A DNA stretch of 64,000 nucleotides from Dipteronia dyeriana. Taxonomy: Eukaryota > Streptophyta > Magnoliopsida > Sapindales > Sapindaceae. This document shows positions 5,973 through 64,000 of the stretch, in pieces. The notes beneath the pieces were generated by a model. The model had not been told where the DNA came from. It was given only the letters and a program-made list of their open reading frames with translations, and did not search any database. A program made the position numbers and the translations under genes. The stretch spans positions 12,157,096 through 12,221,095 of the forward strand of contig CM065298.1 of assembly GCA_032871835.1 (NCBI GenBank), in the 5' to 3' direction. Numbering within the stretch: the first letter of the stretch is position 1; every line of letters begins with the position of its first letter.

Positions 5973-5977
5973 GAAAC

Positions 5978-6613
5978 TGATGTAACGGAAGCTCTGTCGA
6001 GAAAAACCTGCAAGAAACAATCAGAAACAATCTACTAAAATTTCGTTGATTCGCTCACGAATACCGGAATATTAGGCTTCAAATTCGTTGATTCACAAAG
6101 AATACCGAAATTGAAGATAATTAGAGAAACTCTAAATTTTTATTAATCAAAAAAATGATTAGTCTTTCGGCTTACATCCGTATTTAAAGCAAATAAAACC
6201 TAAACCTAATCGTATTCCTTGAAAAACAAGAAAAAGAGCCAAAAAAAAAAAATTACCAAAAAAGAAAAAAACGAGATTAAAGTAAAAACTAATTCTACTA
6301 AGAATCCTAAGCATCCCGGAATTGGCGGAAGTCGATTCGGACTTGGAAAACTCGATTTATTATAAAAACGAAACTTTCCTAAAACGGTCTTTTCAGAGCT
6401 TAAACGATGGAATTCGGCTAAAAAAGGGTATGCCTCATGAGCAAAGCTATGATTTTGAAAGGTCTTACCGAAATACATCAGCTGTCAAAATTTCAAGTCA
6501 TTCCGACTCCGTCGCCTGGACTAGTAGGATTGAAATGGCCATTTTCCTTGGTTTTTCTCATATCCCACCTCTCCATGTAATCTAATGTCAATTGATCTAC
6601 TACCGTTGCATCA
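5978..6613 (-). repeat. 5' LTR of Ty3 element A
   Basis: Begins TGATGTAACGG and ends GTTGCATCA, with the TSD aactc directly after it at 6614-6618. It would carry the element's promoter. Confidence 0.92.
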
Positions 6614-6891
6614 AACTCCCACTTCAGTAGAGATTTCTACCCACATTTGGGTTTTATGAGTGAATTTGCCCACATTGTTTGGAACCCTATAGAGTATAGT
6701 CCCACTACCCACTCACCCACATCTCACTATCATCACAACCCTCCCATCGCAATCGAGCATTATTTAATGTTTCGTTTACCACCAGTATTGAACCACTAAC
6801 CTAAAACAAAGCAAAGTTTATCCACCTTGCTATTACTTCGAATTTATTAATTAAAGCATACTATTTACATATAACCTCTATATGTTATTAC

Positions 6892-8743
6892 ATGTTTATT
6901 GATATCATCTATATTGAAGAATTGTCAAAAGAAGAAAGCCGGTTGTTGTTTACACAATTAGCATTTTTTGATAGGTCTCAACAACAATGTGAAAACTTAG
7001 AATATGTTGGTAGAGAAATTATTGGTAAGTGCAAAGGCTTGCCTCTTGCTTTGAAAACCGTTGGGAGTCTCTTACGCTTAAAAAAAAAAACTAGGGAACA
7101 ATGGCAAAGAATATTGGACAATGAGATATGGAAATTAGAAAAGTTTGAAAAAGGTCTTTTCCCCCCTTTACTATTGAGTTATAATGACTTGCCTTCCATG
7201 ATAAAATGATGTTTCTCATATTGTGCTGTTTTTACAAAAGATTATGAAATGAGAAAAGATGAATTGATTAAATTATGGATGGTTCAAGGCTATCTTGGTT
7301 TAAAACAAAATCAAGAGTCGGAGATAGTTGGTGAAGTGTACTTTGACAGGATAGAATTGTGTTCTTTCTTCCAGGATTTTGAAAAAGATGATGATGATAA
7401 TATTATAACATGTAAGATGCATGACATAGTACATGACTTTGCTCAATTTCTGGTTAAGAATGAATGCTCTATAACTGTAACAAGTGATGATGAAGAATCA
7501 AGTTGTTCTTACTAGAATGCTCACCATTTGATGATGACACTCAAGGATGATCAGGCTTCATTTCTTACTAACATAGGTAGCATCTTCAATCTACGCAGCC
7601 TCTTAGTTAGGTGGGAATATAAGGACTCTTCATCAGTAAGTAATTGCCTACCCAGCTTATTTAAACAGTTGACATGTTTAAGAGCATTGGAGTTATGTGA
7701 AGGTTGGACCACCAATCCAATTACTAAGATATCCCAAGTGAGATAGGAAAATTGATGCACTTGAGATATGTGAACATGTCCGAACTTAAAGGTATAAAGG
7801 AATTACCTGAAAGTTTGTGTGAATTGTATAATTTACGAACTTTGAATCTGAGTTTAAAAAAGCGACCACAAGGGATGGGGAAGTTAATCAATCTAAGGCA
7901 TCTGATAAATGATGGGACTGATGCATTCAGTTACATGCCAAAAGGAATTGAGAGACTAGTTTTTCTAAGAACATTGAGTAAATTGGTTGTTGGTGGTGAT
8001 GGTGACAATAGCCAAGTGTGTAGTCTTGATTGTCTTAAAAAGTTGGACTTCCTTAGAGGCTCTCTTGTAATAAAAGGAATGGGAAATGTGATAGATGGAG
8101 CTGAAGCGAAGAAAGCAAACCTCATGAATAAGAAATATCTGCTTGATTTGCAGTTGTATTTCAGTTACGATGATGATGACGACAATGACATAAGTGAGGG
8201 TGAGGCATCATCATCACAATGCCGTTTGCAGATAGATGAAGATGAAGCATCGGCAACTGAAGTATGTAGGAAAGATGAATCAGTTGTTGAAGCATTACAT
8301 GCACCTCCAAATTTAGAGAAATTAGTTTTAAGAGGGTACAGAGGCATCACAATGTCATTTGAATGGATGGGGTCGTTGACTCAACTGAGGGAGTTAACTC
8401 TCAGAGATTGCATCAACTGTGAGCATTTGCCTCCTTTGGGAAAATTGCCATTGCTTGAAAGACTTCAAATAATAGGCATGAGGGGTCTGAAAAGGGTGGG
8501 TAATGAATTTTTGGGAATAAAAATTAATGACTCATCATCATCATCTTCCTCACTTATCTTCTTCCATGTCTTTCTGACTGTGATATTGCTGAATTTCCTG
8601 AATTGAAGGTGCTGCCAAACCATTTTCTTCAAGTGACATCACTGGAGAGATTGAACATCGACTATTGCCCTGTTTTTAAGCAGTGGGCAAAGATATATCA
8701 TCACTTACCTATAACTAGTGACAGTGAGACTACTAGACGGTAA
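6892..8743 (+). pseudogene. CC-NB-ARC-LRR (NLR) resistance-gene pseudogene 1, 5'-truncated
   Basis: The reading begins inside NB-ARC, after the P-loop and kinase-2 boxes: GREIIGKCKGLPLALKTVGS (GLPLA box), CFSYCA (RNBS-D) near 7210 and KMHDIVHDFAQFL (MHD box) near 7420. An LRR of about 280 codons follows (7752-8606: LPESLCELYNLRTLNL, LTQLRELTLRDCINCEHLPP), with a tail reading SLERLNIDYCPVFKQWAKIY up to a stop at 8741-8743. Damage: TGA at 7207 where the paralogue at 50 kb has CGA (Arg), TAG at 7513, a frameshift near 7740 and another near 8565. The CC domain and nucleotide-binding site are absent. The RGA-type family senses pathogens in the cytoplasm; this copy cannot. The last codons (AGACG|GTAAGT) could also be a splice donor to 3' UTR exons. 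Confidence 0.9.
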
Positions 8744-10060
8744 GTTCTTGGTTTTGATCTTGTTTTATTATCATCATCATTGTCATTTTTATTATCGGCT
8801 TGTTGGATTTGGTGAAATGTTAAATATATATGATCCCTGTATTTATCTCCGTGTAAACTAATGTATCCCTAATATTGACCGATATCTAACATCTCTATTT
8901 TTCGGTATGTTCTTGGTTTTGATCTTATTATTATTATTATTATTATTAATTTATTATTATTATTATTATTGATCTAATGAAATGTTAAATATATGATCAT
9001 GTATTTATATTCACGTAAATTAAAAATTAATTTATGTCATGTATTTATATTCATATGAACCAATTTATTATTTATCCCATCACACCTATACCATTAAAAT
9101 TGTTAGTAGAGGGTCGATGTGTTCCCCATCTAAAATACTAAATTAATTATAATAGTTTTAAAAAATAATAAAAAAATTGTTAATTAAAAAATATACACCT
9201 AGAAACATTTAAGTATGACAAAAAAAAATCATTGTGAAACATAACAAAGGAATGAAAAGAAAAAATTTCTAATAATTCTATTGAAATATCTTTATAAACT
9301 TATAAATTAGAAAACTTTTGTGAATTACTACGTAAGAGTAATTTTGTAATCTTTTTAATTTATATATTTGGATGTATATATATATATATATTCACTTACC
9401 CATTGTGCTTCCCTACAGAGACGTTCGATCGTATCACAAGTGTAAGTTCTTCTTGATTTTGATCTAGTTTTATTATTTTTATTATTATTTTCTTTCTAGA
9501 AATTTGAGTTTGTTTGTTTCTCAGGATTCTTGCGGGAAATCGTTTTAAGGAAGCTTGTCTAAACTAACTTGGTTTGCACATGCAACGGTTTTCTCGATTA
9601 ATTTAACACTAAAGTTGATATGTGCTAGGTTGCTTAATTTCATGGCCATCCGTATTGTTTAAGACAATATAAACTTCTATTTATATTGTTGAAAACATGC
9701 AATTTCTCCGACTTCCCTTAAAAAATCTGTTAAATAACGACTGAAATGCTTTTGAAATTTGTTAAATAATTGAATGCAGAAACTTCGGCAAAGCTCTTGA
9801 AGCCATAGAAAATGTGATAGATGAAACGAGAGCCCAGTCTCTTTTCTCATATCTATATTCAATCTATATCATATTCCTACCATCTTCCGGTAACAGTTCT
9901 ATAACTTGCATCTGCATCTTGTTCTGTCAAATTTTATGTAATATCTCTTATCGAATAGAGGAAAAGAAAATTTTATGGGATGTTTGACTTCACTTGGTGT
10001 ATTCAGGATTATAAGGTTGGATTCTACCGGACAAAAGTGAGGAAGTGTTCTGATACGGTG
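8744..10060. other. AT-rich spacer downstream of NLR pseudogene 1
   Basis: No gene is visible. The stretch holds ATT/TTA microsatellite runs (8925-8970), a short TA repeat (9376-9391), and two copies of a phrase like taagttcttggttttgatcttgtttta (8741, 9442), which suggests repeated donor sites of old 3' UTR introns. Confidence 0.4.
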
Positions 10061-10065
10061 TCACA

Positions 10066-10845
10066 TTGTGCCCAGCAAGGAAACTACGGCCTATGTTGGT
10101 TATGGCAGCACAGAAGATTTGGTAAATAAAAGTTCTGGACTGTCAGGAACCTTCTTGAGGTAATTTTACTTAATTCTTTCTTTCCTTCAATCTTCACTGT
10201 TTGTCTTGCTACTATCTAATCAACGTAGCGGACACAGGCAGCTGAAAAAGAGGCTTAATGAAAGAACATCTGAACTTTCATGTAGTATGTGCTGCTGGTG
10301 ATTCCCGTTCTTAATTTAGTATGTGCTGCTGGTGATTCCATATAATTTTTTCATTGTTTTTGATTTGTGTTGTATATCTATTATCTAGATTGGAGGACAA
10401 ATTACAAGAGCAAAGCTAAAAGGAAAGAACTTGAGAATAGATGATTTTCCTAATGCAACAAAGGTATTATACTCTCTGTGGTTATTTTACCTTTGGGTCT
10501 TCTTTCACGCATTTGATAAAATCTTGCTAAAGCAGTGGTTAAAGATGTGATGTGAAAATGCTGCTACAGGACAATCTGAGGATCTGATGGCTGCTGGAAT
10601 TATTGATTTGGCAAAGTTTAGTGACATTCTCTATTGCTTCAGATAATTCTTTAGGAAATGGAAGAGATGCGTTTGTTTATTAAATTGATTCATATAGAAT
10701 TCATGACAATTAACTGCCTAAATATGAACAAACTTATGGTCTTAAATTACAGGTTATACAATTTTTTCCCGGAGAATGCAACTCCTGTTGACAAAAGTAC
10801 CTAAATCTATGGCTGCTGGAAACTCCATGGATAATTTAGATTGTC
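10066..10845 (+). pseudogene. CPN60B: Plastid chaperonin-60 beta (RuBisCO-binding protein) pseudogene, copy 1
   Basis: Five exon-like blocks with GT/AG borders follow the 3' part of CPN60-beta. Block a (10066-10159) reads AYVGYGSTEDLVNKSS, against the family's TTIVGDGSTQEEVNKR. Block b (10238-10304) reads KRLNERTSELS, against KLNERIAKLSGG. Block c (10389-10463) reads KLKGKNLRIDDFPNATK, against ELKEKKLRVEDALNATK. Block d (10570-10616) reads SEDLMAAGIIDLAK, against EDLMAAGIIDPTK. Block e (10753-10845) ends GNSMDNL, against the C-terminal GNPMDNSGYGY. Order and borders match the parent, so this is a duplicated gene rather than a retrocopy. Internal exons between c and d are missing, and stops and a 34-bp duplication in block b break it. 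The family folds proteins, including RuBisCO, in the chloroplast. The match is from memory of the family, not a search. Confidence 0.75.
10283..10339 (+). repeat. 34-bp tandem duplication in the chaperonin pseudogene
   Basis: The 23-base phrase beginning tagtatgtgctgctggtg occurs at 10283 and again at 10317, so a 34-bp unit was duplicated across the end of exon block b. Confidence 0.8.
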
Positions 10846-11571
10846 ACCTGCAACACTGCCCTCGCTATTTTAACTCTTGATATTAAGCTTCAATAGTGTT
10901 GATTGATTAACCTTCTGCTGTTACGATTGTGATAAGGAAAATATTGCTATTTCGACTGTTTATATCAACTGGTACAGCTCCAAGAAGTTCGTGCCATCTT
11001 TTATAACAACATGTAATGAACAACGGAATTTTGATCAGCCCGAGCTTTTTCTGAACATGATGATGAAATGGGATTTGCAGTACAATGAATGAGGTCTAAC
11101 TGATTTTTGTTTTTCCTCTTTCCATTAAATAGTCATGATTAGATTACTGTAATAAGAAAGAAAATTTGTTGATTCATGCTGTCTACAGACGTGTTCAGCC
11201 CTTCTTCTCTGTGTTGACAACTACTGCTCGCAGAGAAATAAGTTGTAGGAAGAAAGAAGTTCTTATACATACTGCTTCATCAGATTGATTGTGAGTGGCA
11301 GATATGATGACAAGAATTACTAGCACAATAAGTATTCATTATGAAGTACTTTTGGTTATTGAATTTTGGGTTGAAATATTAGTACTTTTGCTTACTTCTA
11401 CCCTCCTTATTGTATCATAGTCCATGGCATATTCTAACTCTAACCATGGCAATTGTTGGGAAAGGTTGATACAAGAAGAATAACACCGGACACTGCCCTC
11501 TTGTCGATAAAGAACTGTAAAACGAGATGCAAATGAGGTCATGGGACATGCTGCCTAATATGTAAGCTCAC
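10846..11571. other. Spacer between the two chaperonin pseudogenes
   Basis: No coding sequence recognised. The phrase gttgattgattaaccttctg at about 10896 recurs at about 12846 after copy 2, so the downstream flank was duplicated together with the gene. Confidence 0.5.
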
Positions 11572-12810
11572 CAGTGAAACTATGACCATTGTTGGTGATA
11601 GCAGCACAGATGGTACAAGTGAATAAAAAAGTTACATAGATCGTGAACCTTGTTGACGTACTTGTAATTAATTCTCTTCCATTTTCTTCACTGTTTGGTC
11701 TCCTACGCTCTAGTAATCAATGTAGCACAATGCAGGCAGCAAAACAGGACTAAGAAATAAAGAAGCTTATCGAAAGGGATTGTGAACCTTTCAGGTGGTG
11801 TTGCTGTGATTCAGGTAAAATTATCTGCTTAATTGATTTGATTAATATATGAAATTTCATTCCCATTTTTTCATTGGTTATAAGTTTAGTGTTGCATATT
11901 TAGGTTTAAGTCCAAAAAGAAACGGAGTTTACATAAAAGAAATTCATAGAAGAGGGTGCTGTCATCACATGTAAAATATCCTCAAGCAGCATCTGTGGCT
12001 GCACCATTTTCTGTCTTGCAACAGATTTGAAGCAGAGAGACTCTTGACAATGACGATGAAAAGGTGATAACTTTCTAAACATGGTAAGTCTCTAACCTTC
12101 TTCCCTTTATTTTTAGTGTGAATTTCTATTTGTTAACTATAAATCTTAATTTTTATAGACGATATTTGGTAAAAGGGCGTTGAGCTTACCAAATGAAGCT
12201 AATTGTCACAATGATAGCATTAATCGGGACGGTTTAATTGAAAAGGTATGCAATTCAAGCAGCATCAATTATACAAGTATGCACTCTAATAGTTTAATTA
12301 TGTTATCTTTCTTTCCATTGACAATACCAGGTTTGCTGTTAGAGGAATATACGAGGATCTTATGGCTTATGGTTATATTGATTTTACGAAGGTGAGAGTT
12401 AGATTCTTTATTGCTTAATACATTTCTCAAACAAATGGAAGTGATGTGTTGATGAATGACAATCAACCGCATGTTAATCGCTTAGTCCTATATTACCCTG
12501 TAAGGCGATTGATAATTATGTTAAGCCTATTGTGCAAACTTATGGTTTTAAATAACAGGTTGTGAGATGGTGCTTCTGTTGCAAAGACATTCTTCACAAA
12601 ATATTCTGTGGCTATTGAAACTTAATTTGTAGCCTCTGGAAATTCACCAGGAACATAAACGGCATTGTCAAACTTGAGCTTCATTGCATGGAATGCCACA
12701 CTCAATTGTCAGCGACAGGAGACCTGGCTCCAGAACAACTATGAGCTAGATGAGGCGGGCGGGTGGACAGGACAGAGAGACGATCCCATGGATAACTACG
12801 GTTGTCACCA
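11572..12810 (+). pseudogene. CPN60B: Plastid chaperonin-60 beta pseudogene, copy 2
   Basis: This copy keeps more exons than copy 1. Block a (11572-11656) reads ETMTIVGDSSTDG. Block b (11736-11814) ends in an alternate frame IVNLSGGVAVIQ|gt, very close to the family IAKLSGGVAVI. Blocks near 11941-12063 carry IEEGAVI and ETLDNDDEK (family ETLDNDEQK). The block at 12159-12245 reads GKRALSLPNEA (family VKRALSYPLKL). The block at 12331-12391 reads YEDLMAYGYIDFTK. The last block (12559-12810) has VVR, then ASVAKTFF in another frame, and DPMDNYG near 12787, matching the C-terminal PMDNSGYG. Stops and frame changes occur in several blocks. With copy 1 it forms a direct tandem pair about 1.5 kb apart. 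Confidence 0.78.
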
Positions 12811-15090
12811 GCAACATTGTCTTCTGAATTTCAATCTTCAGTAGGGTTGATTGATTAACCTTCTGTTGTGTTTCTTATCAGGAATATGGAAGTCATTGAA
12901 TGTTAGGCTTATGCAATTCTCAAAGAGCAGCTAACCGATGTTTTAATCTGCTATGACAACATCCACTTGTGAACAACAAGAATAACATTGAAAATCACCA
13001 CACACTTGGATAGGTGTTAGGGTTTGTTTTAGCAGATGGAGTTCGTTGTCACCCATATTTACTATGAGGGTAATCGAGTTGCAGATTGTTTAGAGTCCAG
13101 GAACCTCAAATATCATTACTCTTGCATGGTGCTCCAGGCTTTTGCATTTCATTTATTTATAATAATGTTTGTAACGGGTCTTTATTTATATTTTGTTGAC
13201 TTGTTTCTTTTTTAAACTCGTGTTGTATTTTTTATATTTATTTTAATAATTTGTTGGAATAGGATATATGAGGAGGGTGCTAAGGAGGTGTCAGTCTAGC
13301 TGGGATGTCCCGTTGCATCTACTGATTTCTATTACCAACAACCTTATCCGGAATTTTTTTAAAAAAAAACTTGTTACCACGGTCTACCTGCAGATTAAGA
13401 TACTAATCGTTGTCACTACAGATCTCTAACATTCTATCAGCACTTCCGTCTTTGTTAACAATTACCGATCTTTTGTGTAGTTGATTTGATTGTACCCTCC
13501 TCAAATCCGTTACTCTGGGGTATCAGCCCTCTAATCATATGTGACAATGACATACACCTTTTGGATCTTTTCTGTAAATGTGGCATATTCAGTTCTCAAA
13601 TTCTACATTCAATTCTTTTCTTTATTTCCCTTTCATGTCCATCTATTATAATCTCGAGCATTGTTTTATTAACAAAATTCAGCATCCTGTAGTGTTCTGA
13701 GAAATTTAATCATTCATTACTCATATGATCACCACAGAAAAACAGTTTCATACTTCGTTCAGGTAATTTCTATTATTACTATAGCATTTAGAAATAGTAA
13801 GTACCTCACTGAAAAAAAAAAAAAAGATCATGGGAAATAGTTGAATTCGGATTGCTTGGAGTTGTTTGAGCTCCTTAAAACATGTTGAATAACTCAAAAT
13901 CAGGTTGGTTGGTAACAGATCTAACCCATGCCCGCTTATGGTCACTGGTGTTAACTTCATTCTTAACCTGCGCCACCTCTTCCAATGGAATATATGCATA
14001 GTTGCCGTTAATAGGACCACACACAAAACCAGTGTAGCCTACCAATAATACCATGAATCTGTGACCACTGCAACTAACAATAGCAGCATGGGTGTCGGTG
14101 GGGTCGAAGAAGATCTGCTTACGTGGACCGCCCTGAGGTATGCGAGGTGGGGAGAGGGGGAGGATGAGGAGGAGATGTTAAAGAGGATGAAGAAGAGAGA
14201 GATGGGCTGCGTGGGAGGCTATTGGCTTATGTTTGATTATTTGCCAACAACACCAAGAATCAATGGAGCTGGGTTTTTTGAACGACACCCAAAAATCTAG
14301 TTTCTGGGTTTTCTGGATTTGAGAGATTTTTTTATTTTGATTTTTTAATGGATTTGAGAGATTTTTTTTTTTTAAATTTTTTAATTGATTTGAGAGATTT
14401 TGAGTTTTCTAGAACAACACCCAAAGTTTGATCTCTAACTTCGAATTCTGTACAAATTTCTTCTCTTCCACAATCTGTAATATTAAAACAATTAGTAATA
14501 TTTTTTTTGGGACATTTCCATAAACCTTCTATGAGGTTAATACCAAGATAATACCTAATTAAAAAAAATAATAATCATTTTTAACATCCTCTCCTTCACC
14601 GTCAGTTCAAAGTCCCTTACCGGTCAAAAGGCAAAGGTGGGTTCAACAAGCTGTGCTCAAGTGCCTTTTTTTTTTAATTAATGAACTTCGAGGAAAAAAA
14701 AAAAAGAGTCTAGAATATTATATACTCAAAAATGGCGTCTTGGAATTTAGAGAGTTTGAGTTTGAGATATTCTGGAAATGAATGAAGTTTGCGGTAGGAA
14801 AGAAAAGGCTGAGGTTTAAGTTTAGACTTGCATTTCTGGAGAGTGAGAGAGAATCAGTGTATTGGAGCAAAACTACATCGTTTAAATTGGATTGGGAATT
14901 AAAAAAGAAAGGCAAAATCTGGACCTTTCATTTTTATTAAAGCCAAGTGCACCAGATCTCATAAAGCTCGGTACAAATTCAGCAGAGAAAGGATTCTTAT
15001 CCTTCTTTGATGGGCTTGTGTATTTCACTTTAAAGAAAAATAATTATGGGATTTTGAACCCAAGTTGCCTAAATTTAAAAAAAAAAAATA
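12811..15090. other. Unassigned spacer
   Basis: No gene I can support. At about 13046-13110 a short frame reads THIYYEGNRVADCL, resembling the end of an RNase H-like domain (RVT_3 type, HxYREGNxVAD), probably a relic. A 79-codon open frame at 14061-14300 has no recognised family. A-runs occur at 13813, 14690 and 15075. Confidence 0.35.
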
Positions 15091-18434: not shown

Positions 18435-18770
18435 TAATAAGTAAAGAATTTGGGAACAGAGGAGAAGAAATAGAAGAAGATAAAGAAGAAGTTTTAGCTG
18501 AATAATTCCATAATTTTATTCAGTTTTTGCCTCTGGCTATTTATAGGCCAGCTACAAAAAACGTTGCAACTAACAAGTCTGAGAACAAAGAAAATAATCA
18601 GGCAATTCACTAAACATGTTTACCACTAACTTATTAACTGGAACCACATCAGTCCCCACTACTCTTCTAACTAAACTGACACCTGACCATTAACTACAAC
18701 AATAACAATAAGGCGATAAACAATCTGACTAAGTCCTTTGCATGAATTGTATGACCACGTGCACATATCA
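18435..18770 (-). repeat. 3' LTR of chromovirus B
   Basis: 336 bp, nearly identical to 22922-23260. On the minus strand it starts TGATATGTGCACGTGG. Confidence 0.9.
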
Positions 18771-18781
18771 TTCCCTCCCGC
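18771..18781 (-). other. Polypurine tract of chromovirus B
   Basis: On the minus strand gcgggagggaa lies directly before the 3' LTR. Confidence 0.7.
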
Positions 18782-19972: not shown

Positions 19973-20644
19973 TTATTGAAGAATGTTCCACCAGTTCGTC
20001 TGAGGTAAGGGAATTGATAGGAAATTGAATTCCATTACACGCGAAAGAGCATAAGCACCATGATTCTCAAGTCCCTTTTTATACTTGATTACATAGTCGT
20101 AACCTAGTATTTTGGGCAGCCAACATATCCATGTTGGAGTTGTTATCCGCTGCTCCATCAGATACTTGAGGCTTCTTTGATTCGCTCTCACTGTAAAGGG
20201 TTTTCCAAACAAGTATGGTCGCCACTTCCGAATGGACTTGACGATAGAGAGCATTTCTTTTTCATATATAGATAAGGTTAACGTAGAACCCTTCAATGCT
20301 TCACTAAAGAAAGCCATTGGCCACCCATTCTGTGAGAGGATTGCAACAAGTCCCATACCACTGGCATCACATTCGATGACAAATCGCTGAGAGAAATCCG
20401 GTAGACTTAAGACTGGTGGTGAAGTCAGTGCCTTCTTTAATTGCTCAAAAGATGTGGAGGCCTCGACTGTCCATTTGAATCCATCCTTGGTTAGAAGTAG
20501 AGTTAATTGTGCCATCATTATGCCAAAACCTTGTATAAACTTCTGATAGTAACCGGCCAAGCCAAGGAACCCACGTACCCCTTTTACGATCGTCAAAATT
20601 GGCCATTCAATGACTGTCCGGATTTTTGATGGATCGACTGCCAC
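19973..20644 (-). pseudogene. RT connection/RNase H region of chromovirus B
   Basis: About 223 codons remain open: VRGFLGLAGYYQKFIQGFG, FVIECDASGMGLVAILSQNG (first RNase H Asp), MAFFSEALKGSTLTLSIYEK with the catalytic Glu block YEKEM, and ENHGAYALSRVMEF. In the last, Ala-Asp-Ala-Leu-Ser has become Ala-Tyr-Ala-Leu-Ser, so a catalytic Asp is lost. TDQRSL is also changed to RANQRSL. Confidence 0.85.
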
Positions 20645-22921: not shown

Positions 22922-23260
22922 CGATAAGTAAAGAATTTGGGAACAGAGAAGAGAAGAAATAGAAGAAGATAAAGAAGAAGTTTTAGCTGAATAATTCCAT
23001 AATTTTATTCAGTTTTTGCCTCTGGCTATTTATAGGCCAGCTACAAAAAAACGTTGCAACTAACAAGTCTGAGAACAAAGCAAATAATCAGGAAACCCAT
23101 TAAACATGTTTACCACTAACTTATTAACTAGAACCACATCAGTCCCCACTACTCTTCTAACTAACTTGACATCTAACCACTAACTACGACAATAACAATA
23201 AGGCGATAAACAATCTGACTAAGTCCTTTGCATGAATTGTTTGACCACGTGCACATATCA
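22922..23260 (-). repeat. 5' LTR of chromovirus B
   Basis: 339 bp. The sequence just inside it on the minus strand (GTGGTATTTGGTTGC) begins like an initiator-Met tRNA primer site (TGGTAT) but then diverges, so the primer call is weak. Confidence 0.9.
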
Positions 23261-23265
23261 TCGAT

Positions 23266-23970
23266 ACACCCGCTAGCGGTTTTCGGCATATGCCATCTGT
23301 GATGCTTTTGATGATAATGATGAACAGAAGGTGAAATATGTCCAATATGACTGTCCATTTATCTATAGATTCATTCGTTTCTTTAGGAAATGAAATAAAG
23401 TGAAGTGCATATATGTTATATATTAAATTAATTCTGGTTGAATTTGTACATGAAAATTAACTGCATGTTTGAAGTTCAGTCCTTACGTTGGATAATTGTG
23501 GTATCAAACTAATGGTCTTAAATTACAGGGTGTAGGATTTCGCCTAGACCATGTCGAACAATAGTCCTCGCTCGCATTAGATACTGTGCTTCTCGGCATA
23601 TGAAGAAACAAGCAACATTCCCTCATGTCTTCCATCTCTATTACTTATACCAAGATCTCACTATGCAACCTCTTAACATCTGTAACCAAGATTGGAACCA
23701 TGGGAATTGGTGAGGTACTGAGATCTAAAAGGTTGTTAAAAGAAGAATGGGATCAAATAGTAGTGTTTGCATACTCAGACTAGAAATAGTGCATTCATGA
23801 AATCCTTTCTAACTTATTTGACCACTCTTAAAGTTCCCTTTCATGTTCATCTATTACTATTACCTTATCCTTATACATTGTTTTCTCATGAATGTTAATA
23901 AGAGAAAATTAATTAATTAAATGAATTGAATAAAATTTCTTTTGAAACTATATGTTCCTAATCTATATTA
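23266..23970. other. Spacer with a chaperonin-pseudogene intron trace
   Basis: No gene. Bases 23374-23530 (tttctttaggaaatg ... aattaactgcatg ... aatggtcttaaattacag) parallel the intron before the last exon of chaperonin copy 1 (10646-10752). The sequence after the acceptor (ggtgtaggatttcgcc) is not recognisable as chaperonin, so only the intron trace is claimed. Confidence 0.5.
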
Positions 23971-48713: not shown

Positions 48714-48850
48714 TATGAAATATTCTTTTTGGCCTTTTACATGTACTTTATGTATTGAAAGCATGACAGCGCATTTTCTCTTCACAAATACAATTACCGA
48801 CTCCAAAATTTATATTTCTCCATTTGTCATTGCAATTTCCATCTCAAACT

Positions 48851-50430
48851 ATGGCTGCTGAGGCAATTGTTTCTGTTGTCTTGGATCAACTGATTTCAAT
48901 CATTGGTCGAGAAATACAACAAGAGGTGAGGCTGGTGGTGGGTGTCAAAAAGGAAATCAAGAAGCTTACCAGCAAATTTCGAGCCATTCAAGCTGTGCTC
49001 GTTGATGCAGAGCAAAGACAAATCAAGGACACAGTCGTGGCAGATTGGTTAGACAAACTCAAGGATGCATCCTACGACGTGGATGACGTGTTAGATGGGT
49101 GGAACACAGCAATCTTGAAGTTGCAAATTGAGGGAGTTGAAAATGCATCTATTCCTGAGAAGAAGGTATGCTTTTTCTTTCCCTCTCCTAGATTTTGTTG
49201 CAAAAGAGTTGCTTTACATCATGATATTGGTCTCAAGATAAAAGAAATAAATGAAAGTCTTGATTCAATTGTTAAAGAGAAAGATATGTATAATCTTAAT
49301 ATGATTAGGAGTATCGATGAACCAGAACGATTGAAAACTACTTCTTTTGTTGATGTGTCTAAAATACGTGGCCGAGAGGATGAGAAAAGTAGTCTATTAA
49401 GCAAGTTGTTGAGTGATAGTCATGTAGAAAAAAAAGGCCTCCATATCATCTCAATTGTAGGGATGGGAGGAATAGGAAAAACAACACTTGCCCAACTTGT
49501 GTACAATGATGAAGAGGTGAAAAGCAATTTTGATAAAAAAATATGGGTTTGTGTCTCGGACCCTTGTGATGAGGTTAGGATTGCAAAAGCAATCATTAAA
49601 GGTCTTACAGATTCTGTCTCTAATTTTACAGAGTTGCAATCGCTTTTAATGCGCATTCATGGTAATTAAAACGAAATTTCTTCTTGTCCTTGATGATGTA
49701 TAGACAGAAGAATAATATAAATGGGAACCATTGTACAACTCTCTTAACAATGGTCTCCATGGAAGTAATATTTTGGTTACAACACGTAAATCAGCAGTTG
49801 CACGCATGATGAAATCAACTAATATTATCAATGTTGAAGAATTGTCAAAAGATGGAAGTTGGTTGTTGTTTAAACAATTAGCATTTTTTGATAGGTCTCA
49901 ACAAGAATGTGAAAACTTAGAAAACATCGGTAGAGAAATTGTTGTAAAGTGCAAAGGATTACCTCTTGCTTTAAAAACCGTTGGGAGTCTCTTTCGCTTC
50001 AAAAAAACTAGGGAACAATGGCAAAGAATATTAGATAATGAGATATGGAAATTAGAAGAGTTTGAAAAAGGTCTTTTCCCTCCTCTATTATTGAGTTATA
50101 ATAACTTGTCTTCCATGATAAAACGATGTTTCTCATATTGTGCAAACTTTCCAAAAGATTATGAAATGAAAAAAGATAAATTAATTAAATTATGGATGGC
50201 TCAAGGCTACCTTGGTTCAGAACAAAATCAAGAGTTGGAGATAGTTGGTGAAGAGTACTTTGACATGTTAGCAATGTGTTCTTTTTTCCAGGATTTTAAA
50301 AAAGATGATGATGATAATATTATAAAATGTAAGATACATGACATAGTATATGACTTTGCTCATTTTCTTGTTAAGAATGAATGCTCTATAATGGTAACAA
50401 GTAGTGATGAAGAATCAAGCCTGGGCCATT
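48851..50430 (+). pseudogene. CC-NB-ARC (NLR) resistance-gene pseudogene 2, LRR lost
   Basis: Start chosen at 48851 (MAAEAIVSVVLDQLISIIGR), the usual RGA-type opening; an in-frame Met lies 9 codons upstream. The Rx-type coiled coil has AVLVDAEQRQIKD and VADWLDKLKDASYDVDDVLD. The P-loop is VGMGGIGKTTLAQLVYND (about 49458-49511) and RNBS-A ends KIWVCVSD. Kinase-2 reads KFLLVLDDV and then TAG where Trp is expected, after a frame change at about 49665. RNBS-B is GSNILVTTR; GLPLA, CFSYCANFPKDYEMK and the MHD variant CKIHDIVYDFAHFL follow. After SSDEESS (about 50420) homology to pseudogene 1 stops, and the frame runs into GAG/GAC repeats that encode only Glu and Asp. No LRR is present. It is not functional as an immune receptor. 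Confidence 0.92.
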
Positions 50431-50694
50431 TTTACAAGAATGAGAAGGAAAAGAAGAAGGAGAAGAAGGAGGGGAAGGAGAAGGAGGATGAGGACGAGGA
50501 GGACGAGGACGAGGACGAGGACGAGGAGGGAGAGGAGGACGACGATGACAAGGACCAGGATGAGGACGACAACGAGGACGAGGACGAGGACGACGATTAG
50601 GACGAGGAGGGAGAGGAAGAGGACGACGACGATGAGGACGAGGACGAGGATGAGGATGACAACGAGGAGGACGATGACGACAAAGAGGACAAGC

Positions 50695-50728
<34 letters not shown>

Positions 50729-50744
50729 TGATGAGGAGGACGAG

Positions 50745-50780
<36 letters not shown>

Positions 50781-50900
50781 GACGACGACGATGAGGAGAA
50801 AGAGGAGGACGACGATGAGGAGGATGAGGACGAGGAGGACGAGGAAGGAGAAGGACGATGGGGAGGAGGACGGAGAGGAGGAGTGATAGAGATCCACATC
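50431..50900. repeat. GAG/GAC minisatellite replacing the NLR LRR
   Basis: About 450 bases of imperfect GAGGACGAG units, with AAG-rich edges. It reads as Glu/Asp in one frame, Arg/Thr in another, and Leu/Val or Ser on the other strand. Long open frames on either strand here are composition artefacts. Confidence 0.9.
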
Positions 50901-50909
50901 GTCGAAGAA

Positions 50910-51111
50910 GAAGAAGGAGAAAAAAAAAGTAAATAAGGTGAGTTTTTTAAAAAACATAGAAAACATTTAAAATTACTTGTTTTTTTAAAATTTTCACTAT
51001 TAATACTTATTTGTTTTCCATTTTGTTTGGGTTTTTTAAAAACAAAATGATGAACTCAAATTCAAAATCGTTTTTGAGAAACAAAAACGAAAGCGGATCG
51101 AAAAACAGATG
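50910..51111. mobile_element. Right end of a purine-core inverted-repeat element (copy 1)
   Basis: Similar to 61318-61528 and 61540-61690: tttttaaaaacaaaatg ... aatcgtttttgagaaacaaaaacgaaagcgg, ending gaaaaacagatgtgagaca. No matching left end was found; it sits just after the minisatellite that truncates NLR pseudogene 2. Confidence 0.5.
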
Positions 51112-63300: not shown

Positions 63301-64000
63301 GGTGTCTGATTCTAATGTTCCATCGGTGGCGCCCACATGCAGCTTCCGACGGCAGCTGATTCCGATTGTTTCTTTGTTTTCCCATTTATTTAATGTTTAA
63401 CTTATGTTTAAAAAAAAAACTGTTTTAACTTAAAAAAAAATTAAATAAACAAGTTTAGATTATTAAAAATAATATGCCAAAAATATTTTATTCTAAAATC
63501 ATAATTTTGTATAGAAAAAGAGTTTAGAAAGAGTAATAATATACAACTCGCGGAGGCCTTCCCGTCTCGCACCACCTTCCGAGTTTTAAAACTTTGACAG
63601 CAATTGTGTGTGACATGAATTTAAAAATTAGAGTAGGAGTAAATGACTGGTTTTGATACAATAAACAAATTACTTGGTGACTGAGAAACTGCTGTATTTA
63701 TTCTATATGTAATTGTGAATATATAATAGATTTGAAGTTCTATACAGTCCTATCGTTTAAATATTTGTTTCTCTGTTTTGTTTCTTGTTCATTTTCTTCT
63801 GCAAATTTGATTGAGGAAGATGAATCATCTGATTTTCCACTCGACTTCCTTCCGGTCACAGGGTCTATGCATTTCCCTGGATTGGCGACACTAAGAACTG
63901 CATTTCCCTGGATTGTAAGTCATTACGATTATGTGATTGTTAATTCTGTTATGCAAAGGTATTATACTCTACGTGGTTATTTTAACTTCGTGTCTTCTTT
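63301..64000 (+). other. Spacer ending in a chaperonin-type intron trace
   Basis: No gene. Bases 63950-64000 (atgcaaaggtattatactctacgtggttatttta...) match the exon end and intron start of chaperonin copy 1 at about 10454-10506. The phrase gcatttccctggattg is repeated at 63868 and 63901. Confidence 0.6.

Follow-up and report, generated by a model that had tools for sequence, protein, structure and literature searches.

Plastid CPN60-beta pseudogene fragments as probable passengers in a duplication unit of an NLR family in Dipteronia dyeriana

Non-processed pseudogenes of five plant species have been described as keeping their introns, carrying disablements and occurring in excess as tandem or proximal duplicates, with tandem pseudogene copies keeping homology in their flanking sequence (PMC7935947). 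Tandem duplication is also known from loci of nucleotide-binding leucine-rich repeat (NLR) receptors: at the barley Mla locus (Morex) a unit of 39.7 kb has been duplicated in tandem and is 99.9% identical (PMC8290290), and at rice Xo1 the zfBED-NLR carries an integrated domain, a foreign sequence that goes with an NLR clade (PMC7004385). Here we describe a stretch of 64,000 nucleotides from Dipteronia dyeriana (GCA_032871835.1, contig CM065298.1; hereafter ‘the window’, C4:12157096–12221095 of a 914 Mb genome in 78 contigs) in which two worn copies, A and B, of the 3' part of the plastid chaperonin-60 beta (CPN60-beta) gene lie downstream of an NLR relic. Judged from sequence comparisons, A and B are very probably non-processed pseudogene fragments that have been carried as passengers in a duplication unit of the NLR family.

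Set against these three papers, the locus displays both likenesses and differences. As in the plant non-processed pseudogenes, A and B keep introns and carry disablements; unlike the pseudogenes described in PMC7935947, they form a tandem pair inside a unit and appear to be passengers of another family's amplification. As at Mla, long segments of an NLR locus have been duplicated in tandem (the units near 11.86, 11.97 and 12.07 Mb of C4 lie 109 and 104 kb apart, and their B copies are 97–99% identical), but the repeated unit here contains a chaperonin fragment, a neutral comparison sequence. As with the zfBED-NLR of Xo1, foreign gene sequence accompanies an NLR clade, but the CPN60 part lies past the NLR stop and bears no sign of selection, and both A and every B copy counted are disrupted. 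A and B resemble plastid CPN60-beta genes (Cpn60_TCP1, PF00118) in the sequence and intron positions of exons 7–13, and differ from them in lacking the 5' half and an open frame and in being too worn for Pfam to recognize piecewise. None of the titles and abstract openings of the open-access literature searched mentions CPN60 fragments within a cluster of NLRs; Cpn60, NBS-LRR and pseudogene came together there only in a proteomics paper on rice blast. Intron-retaining pseudogenes being common in plants and NLR tandem duplications already known, the chaperonin passenger is a clear fossil tag and not a new system.

Dating and ordering the duplications of an NLR cluster is difficult, since NLR coding sequence is subject to selection and conversion. 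A dead passenger fragment provides a neutral yardstick that can order the duplications, reveal breaks and exchanges, and set NLR change against neutral change. Annotation of such NLR regions can hide or merge chaperonin exons. The locus says nothing new on the function of chaperonins or NLRs.

Copies A and B and their exon borders

The genome contains one CPN60-beta gene highly identical to that of grape, located at C7:38126272–38129633 (68–96% exon by exon). In spliced alignment it comprises 13 modelled exons, separated by GT/AG introns, whose open frame spans 604 residues, and a further, 14th mini-exon (GATATGGCTACTAA) lies downstream after another intron. Among the 120 proteins listed, its product is closest to Xanthoceras sorbifolium P0010 (96.5%).

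Comparison of the grape CPN60-beta protein (P0020) with the 64 kb window by tblastn revealed copy B as linked, collinear matches at 11567–12394 (E = 4e-7) and copy A as matches in protein order at 10065–10616 (E = 1e-3; 0.002–0.003 with two other plant proteins). Against the intact protein of the same genome, positions 10000–13000 score 33.1 bits in their best match and 79.8 as a collinear chain; 200 dinucleotide-preserving shuffles reach at most 23.5 and 29.5, and the reversed sequence reaches 21.2 and 13.2. The first-pass annotation of this DNA had read the 3' part of plastid CPN60-beta twice in parental order, and both the tblastn matches and the alignment to the intact C7 gene, over exons 7–13, bear this out. 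In the window's copy A, exon 11 is missing and exon 10 is reduced to a scrap; the A copies at 11.97 and 12.07 Mb retain both exons.

The alignment with the intact gene, which had been proposed as a check on this reading, shows exon borders that agree between the gene and the copies. Introns are present in A and B at the parental positions, rather than absent as in a processed (retro-)pseudogene, which indicates that the two copies arose at the DNA level, as had been suggested, and not by retroposition. Their assignment as pseudogenes also holds, with a frameshift in exon 7 of A and frame-changing indels in B. The GT/AG borders that had been described are preserved only in part. Many still stand (e7/gt and ag/e9/gt in copy A; e7/gt, ag/e8/gt, ag/e9, e10/gt, e11/gt, e12/gt and ag/e13 in copy B, where the slash marks the border), and others have decayed, such as e12/tt in copy A. 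The C-terminal word PMDN, reported for both copies, is spelled in B at 12785–12796, but A reads SMDN; PMDN and YEDLMAAGIIDPTK are the wording of plant CPN60-beta proteins. The spacer between the copies is crossed by an aligned block at 10604–11964 (to stretch L045), and its right part lies under blocks at 11143–13375 (to L042–L044).

No trace of exons 1–6 (protein residues 1–370) was found in seven C4 stretches totalling 149 kb, four of which were also searched at the DNA level. A Pfam scan of eight single blocks of A and B matched none of them at E ≤ 1; taken singly, they have too little length and have decayed too far for Pfam, and become visible only against plant CPN60-beta. Rfam and tRNA scans of the window gave no match.

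The NLR relic that had been reported to adjoin the copies is confirmed by tblastn, with matches to NB-ARC and leucine-rich repeat (LRR) sequence. Relative to a second NLR of the same family that starts at 48824, the relic lacks its 5' half, and its two parts stand in different frames; Pfam assigns LRR_R13L1-DRL21 to 7752–8606, and the relic is 90% identical in DNA to the NLR sequence at 49822–50419. Its frame stops at 8604–8606. The CPN60 part begins near 10060, with a frameshift in its first exon, and is not in frame with the NLR as an integrated domain would be.

The unit in and beyond the C4 cluster

The first-pass annotation saw one case of a larger pattern, in which NLR, A and B make up a compound unit. 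Six places have the full order NLR, A, B on the plus strand (11.70, 11.86, 11.97, 12.07 and 12.15 Mb and the window), and four more have it in part; the ten A/B places lie in a cluster of 630 kb at C4:11.63–12.26 Mb, all on the plus strand. Genome searches with A and B score the best candidates only, and the counts that follow are lower bounds. With B, at least 33 DNA matches were obtained, of which at least 27 fall at C4:11.628–12.259 Mb, all on the plus strand; at least six lie outside the cluster, and all of these are repeat scrap of 35–49 bp (C1, C3 twice, C8 twice and C4:70.7 Mb). With A there were at least 25 matches, at least 24 of them in the cluster (all plus) and at least one at C4:10.876 Mb. 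A DNA search with the window NLR returned 76 matches, including nine members on the plus strand at C4:11.62–12.21 Mb (eight of them 79–100% identical to the window NLR, and the member at 11622205 71% identical). CPN60 pieces follow on the same strand behind eight of these nine.

The juxtaposition of chaperonin and NLR sequence is thus real, but it is less unexpected than had been claimed, being explained by co-duplication. Copies A and B are likewise both present, but the window holds at least four CPN60-beta remnants and not two. Pieces termed C (exon 13) and D (exons 8–10) also occur at 11.86 and 11.97 Mb, and there is a further D-type match at 12.082 Mb. In stretch L052 (C4:11627698–11628108), an NLR coiled-coil/NB-ARC piece lies between the exon 7 part and the tail of a B-type copy, and looks as if NLR and CPN60 sequences had recombined there.

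The 5–6 kb behind seven remoter NLRs of the same family (L054–L060) was also compared with CPN60-beta, and a clear remnant was present on the NLR strand behind two of them. At C7:12.124 Mb the remnant (EPEHVAAGSSMDNSG, followed by GTTTTT) scores 48.2 bits, whereas none of 400 shuffles exceeds 35.6; at C4:10.879 Mb it comprises exons 12–13 and scores 111 bits. Both of these NLRs are 70–73% identical to the window NLR, so that the linkage predates most of today's cluster.

Descent, decay and competing explanations

Besides the C7 gene, the genome contains a diverged second type of CPN60-beta near 65.02 Mb of C9 (C9b), with the same intron positions as C7. In a tree of exons 7–13 limited to CPN60-beta sequences, without CPN60-alpha or mitochondrial CPN60, the A copies and the B copies each form a clade (100 and 100), A and B group together (ultrafast bootstrap 98), and A, B and C7 form a further clade (100), with the C9 type falling outside. 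The tree was built without the A copy of L045, which is poorly alignable (p-distance 0.49 to C7 and 0.59 to C9b). Eight of nine copies show p-distances of 0.31–0.36 to C7 versus 0.41–0.48 to C9b. Among the sequences compared, A and B thus come out as each other's nearest relatives and as sister to the C7 gene.

On the stem before the A/B split, 18 sites have changed, distributed as 4, 2 and 12 over codon positions 1, 2 and 3 (comparable sites 124, 134 and 124; one-sided binomial p = 0.003). This preference for third positions suggests that the ancestor of A and B worked as a CPN60-beta for part of that time, and would thus once have been a functional gene.

The B copies tell of a different, later phase. 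Relative to C7, exon deletions of 14, 4, 18, 1, 9 and 9 bases occur in eight of eight B copies, and the six copies that extend over the sites in question also have insertions of 1 and 1 in common. Of these eight indels five change the frame; the exact lengths depend on the alignment. Since the disablements are common to all covering copies, B was already dead when the cluster multiplied. Variable sites among the eight B copies number 52/195, 54/196 and 57/193 at codon positions 1, 2 and 3 and 201/752 in introns and flanks (27–30% overall, introns and flanks like codon positions), which points to an absence of codon-level constraint after death. Between the A copies of the window and of L043 the differences by codon position are 32/136, 19/134 and 20/134. 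The exons of five B copies stand at a Kimura two-parameter (K2P) distance of 0.41–0.47 from the intact gene.

We believe the most likely history runs as follows. A second CPN60-beta paralogue would have been functional for a while and would then have lost its 5' half; the truncated copy would have become linked to an NLR, been doubled to A and B (and to the C and D pieces) and decayed. Copying of NLR segments, by unequal exchange and segmental duplication, would then have multiplied A and B, and their maintenance, if any, would be owed to the NLRs. We infer this order of truncation and linkage, as well as the proposition that selection, where acting, acts on the NLRs. Nothing in the sequence of A and B indicates a present function, and their only role today is probably that of neutral homologous sequence. 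In the youngest unit pair (11.97 and 12.07 Mb), every part is also the youngest of its kind, with p-distances of 0.002 in the NLR, 0.00 in A and 0.03 in B.

Several observations fit this history less well. Older unit pairs track each other poorly (p-distances 0.07–0.11 in the NLR, 0.08–0.25 in A and 0.10–0.14 in B): the window and the 12.15 Mb unit differ by 0.066 in the NLR and by 0.12 in A and B, and the 11.70 and 11.97 Mb units by 0.108 in the NLR, 0.08 in A and 0.10 in B. The A and B trees conflict, with the window's A joining the 12.15 Mb copy (100) and, in the joint tree, its B joining the 11.7–12.07 Mb group (97), so that the unit has not invariably moved as a whole; exchange between units is the likely cause. 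The NLR at 11684204 has no CPN60 in the next 7 kb, and no match to NLR coding sequence accompanies the units at 12.233 and 12.256 Mb within the stretch examined. Behind the remoter NLRs, five of seven have no significant trace: nothing significant was found in four flanks (L054, L058, L059 and L060), and that of L056 (KILRTEDAQNATK) is suggestive at 37.4 bits, below its shuffle maximum of 44.6. The C7:12.124 Mb remnant was itself found by inspecting the flank of an NLR, and genome searches could miss remnants that have no NLR. One CPN60-beta fragment at C3:62.353 Mb (exons 10–11 with intron; L061, 62352998–62353087 and the next exon) has no NLR match in 5 kb; it is 91% and 85% identical to C7 and weakly like A and B, without being of their type, and appears to represent a separate, younger event, which indicates that CPN60-beta fragments also arise without an NLR. 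Finally, in a five-copy alignment of B, introns differ more than exons in six of ten pairs, and the L042–L044 pairs have 4/7, 7/11 and 7/12 of their differences at third positions; this third-position and intron excess is absent from the eight-copy count.

Much of this evidence bears also on other explanations. The CPN60-beta pieces might be 3' exons of the NLRs that have been kept because they serve the receptor, whether as an integrated domain or as untranslated 3' sequence. They do lie on the same strand; of eight units with an NLR, six have them 1–2.2 kb downstream of it and two at 6.5 and 13.5 kb, and they persist behind NLR copies that are some 27–30% apart; but the NLR frame stops before the CPN60 part, exon 7 of A is frameshifted, the B copies have their five frame-changing indels in common, their variable sites show no codon-position bias, and a significant trace is absent at one of nine cluster NLRs and five of seven remoter ones. 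We regard this explanation as highly improbable as a whole, although the pieces may conceivably form a 3' untranslated part. It is also very doubtful that a transposon captured and scattered the pieces, their place beside NLRs being secondary. Pack-MULEs and Helitrons capture intron-containing gene pieces, retroelement frames are frequent in the window, and the C3 fragment has no NLR; that piece, however, is not of the A/B type, the NLR and CPN60 blocks are collinear, and the scored matches outside the cluster, repeat scrap apart, come down to C4:10.876 Mb, where an NLR of this family lies next to the match. The sole inverted repeat of at least 30 bases within 8500–14500 is an AT-rich pair (8928/9134), Helitron ends not having been searched for. 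The first capture of a CPN60-beta piece may nonetheless have been the work of a transposon.

Small RNAs could plausibly arise from degenerate gene pieces that lie in tandem, and A and B, being two such copies, might act through small RNAs on the intact CPN60-beta gene. Between the intact coding sequence and four C4 stretches (129 kb) the longest exact match in sense has 15 nt and that in antisense 13 nt, but 20 shuffles of the coding sequence reach 15 nt too, so that no exact match goes beyond chance and this possibility is close to negligible. A proposal that overlaps with descent as passengers, and differs from it in the first step only, is that the source was a CPN60-beta copy dead on arrival instead of a temporarily working paralogue. 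Loss of exons 1–6 would kill a copy at once, and none of those exons was found in the C4 stretches searched, but 12 of the 18 changes on the stem fall at third positions and the exons have diverged far from the intact gene; we consider such an origin unlikely. None of these four explanations has support comparable to that for A and B as passengers of the NLR unit. A more speculative and very improbable variant is that the founder NLR had a functional second CPN60-beta directly behind it, which served as its partner (a chaperonin that it guarded, for instance), and that the copies are fossils of an extinct NLR-chaperonin pair. If so, the NLR clade would have multiplied later, and its chaperonin partner would have lost its 5' half and died.

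Feature coordinates and neighbouring sequences

Coordinates of CPN60-beta remnants and NLR sequences (positions in the window unless C4 or Mb is given; C7 gene, the intact CPN60-beta gene)
Feature	Position	Strand	Content or basis
NLR relic	6902–8603	+	NB-ARC/winged-helix end 6902–7473, LRR 7752–8603; tblastn
Copy A	10060–10930	+	CPN60-beta exons 7, 8, 9, scrap of 10, 12, 13, with introns
Copy A exon 7	10060–10159	+	Alignment to C7 gene; inner frameshift
Copy A exon 8	10234–10297	+	Alignment to C7 gene
Copy A exon 9	10389–10463	+	74% identical to intact C7 gene; borders ctag, gtatta
Copy A exon 10 scrap	10532–10547	+	Alignment to C7 gene
Copy A exon 12	10548–10616	+	Reads NAATGQSEDLMAAGIIDLAK; tblastn and alignment to C7 gene
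Copy A exon 13	10739–10847	+	Alignment to C7 gene
A–B spacer	10931–11559	+	Belongs to same duplicated block
Copy B	11560–12890	+	CPN60-beta exons 7–13, with introns
Copy B exon 7	11560–11657	+	Alignment to C7 gene
Copy B exon 8	11736–11814	+	Alignment to C7 gene
Copy B exon 9	11904–11958	+	Alignment to C7 gene
Copy B exon 10	11986–12063	+	Alignment to C7 gene
Copy B exon 11	12170–12245	+	Alignment to C7 gene
Copy B exon 12	12309–12391	+	Alignment to C7 gene
Copy B exon 13	12559–12674	+	Alignment to C7 gene; C-terminal word comes after
Dispersed-repeat scrap in exon 13 part of copy B	12679–12727	+	Genome-wide DNA search with B
D-type remnant	23261–23560 (right end approximate)	+	Exon 10 3' part (..AFDDNDEQK/gtgaaa) and exon 13 start
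Second NLR, same family	48824–50390	+	Rx_N, NB-ARC, winged helix; frame change between 49669 and 49731
A-type copy start	63954–64000 (C4:12221049–12221106)	+	Exon 9/intron 9; continues to ~64042
A/B places (Mb)	~11.625, 11.707, 11.859, 11.968, 12.072, 12.151, 12.167 (window), 12.233, 12.256	+	
A-only place	C4:12.221–12.228 Mb	+	Split by insertion

The D-type remnant is 83% identical to L043 7669–8157, overlapping an exon 10 match at L043 7650–7740, and is truncated on its left by a direct repeat that ends at 23261. This repeat is one of a pair (18437–18771 and 22924–23261, 95% identical) that encloses a minus-strand, retroelement-like frame at 19973–20644. The A-type copy at the right end of the window resumes at ~70695 (into L046) after an insertion of ~6.65 kb, and when its two halves are aligned to L043 they share 7 bp, as a target-site duplication would produce.

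The second NLR enters a repeat tract of ~500 bp (50392–50966), with copies spaced 9–15 bases apart, that codes mostly for Asp and Glu in the NLR frame. Just before the NLR relic, direct repeats at 912–1565 and 5977–6620 (92% identical, 5 kb apart) surround a minus-strand reverse-transcriptase RNase H frame, and the whole looks like a long terminal repeat (LTR) retrotransposon.

Among the other chaperonin loci of the genome, C9b lies in L041 (C9:65016001–65025000), with a frame that is open from residue 52 on. About 26 kb from it, near 64.99 Mb (L040, C9:64991001–64997000), a partial copy, C9a, has an internal gap and a stop. Downstream of exon 13 of the C7 gene, homology consists of the exon end and TA-rich repeats only. 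Eight loci from a genome search with PF00118, in which other chaperonins ranked first, were rejected as CPN60-beta, four of them matching P0020 at 21–32% and four not at all; they are probably CCT genes. Two public annotations join CPN60-beta to another family, namely P0010 of Xanthoceras (PF03106 and CPN60-beta) and P0026 of Ficus (CPN60-beta and PF13855). We take PF03106 to be WRKY and PF13855 to be LRR, and both fusions are probably merged neighbouring gene models.

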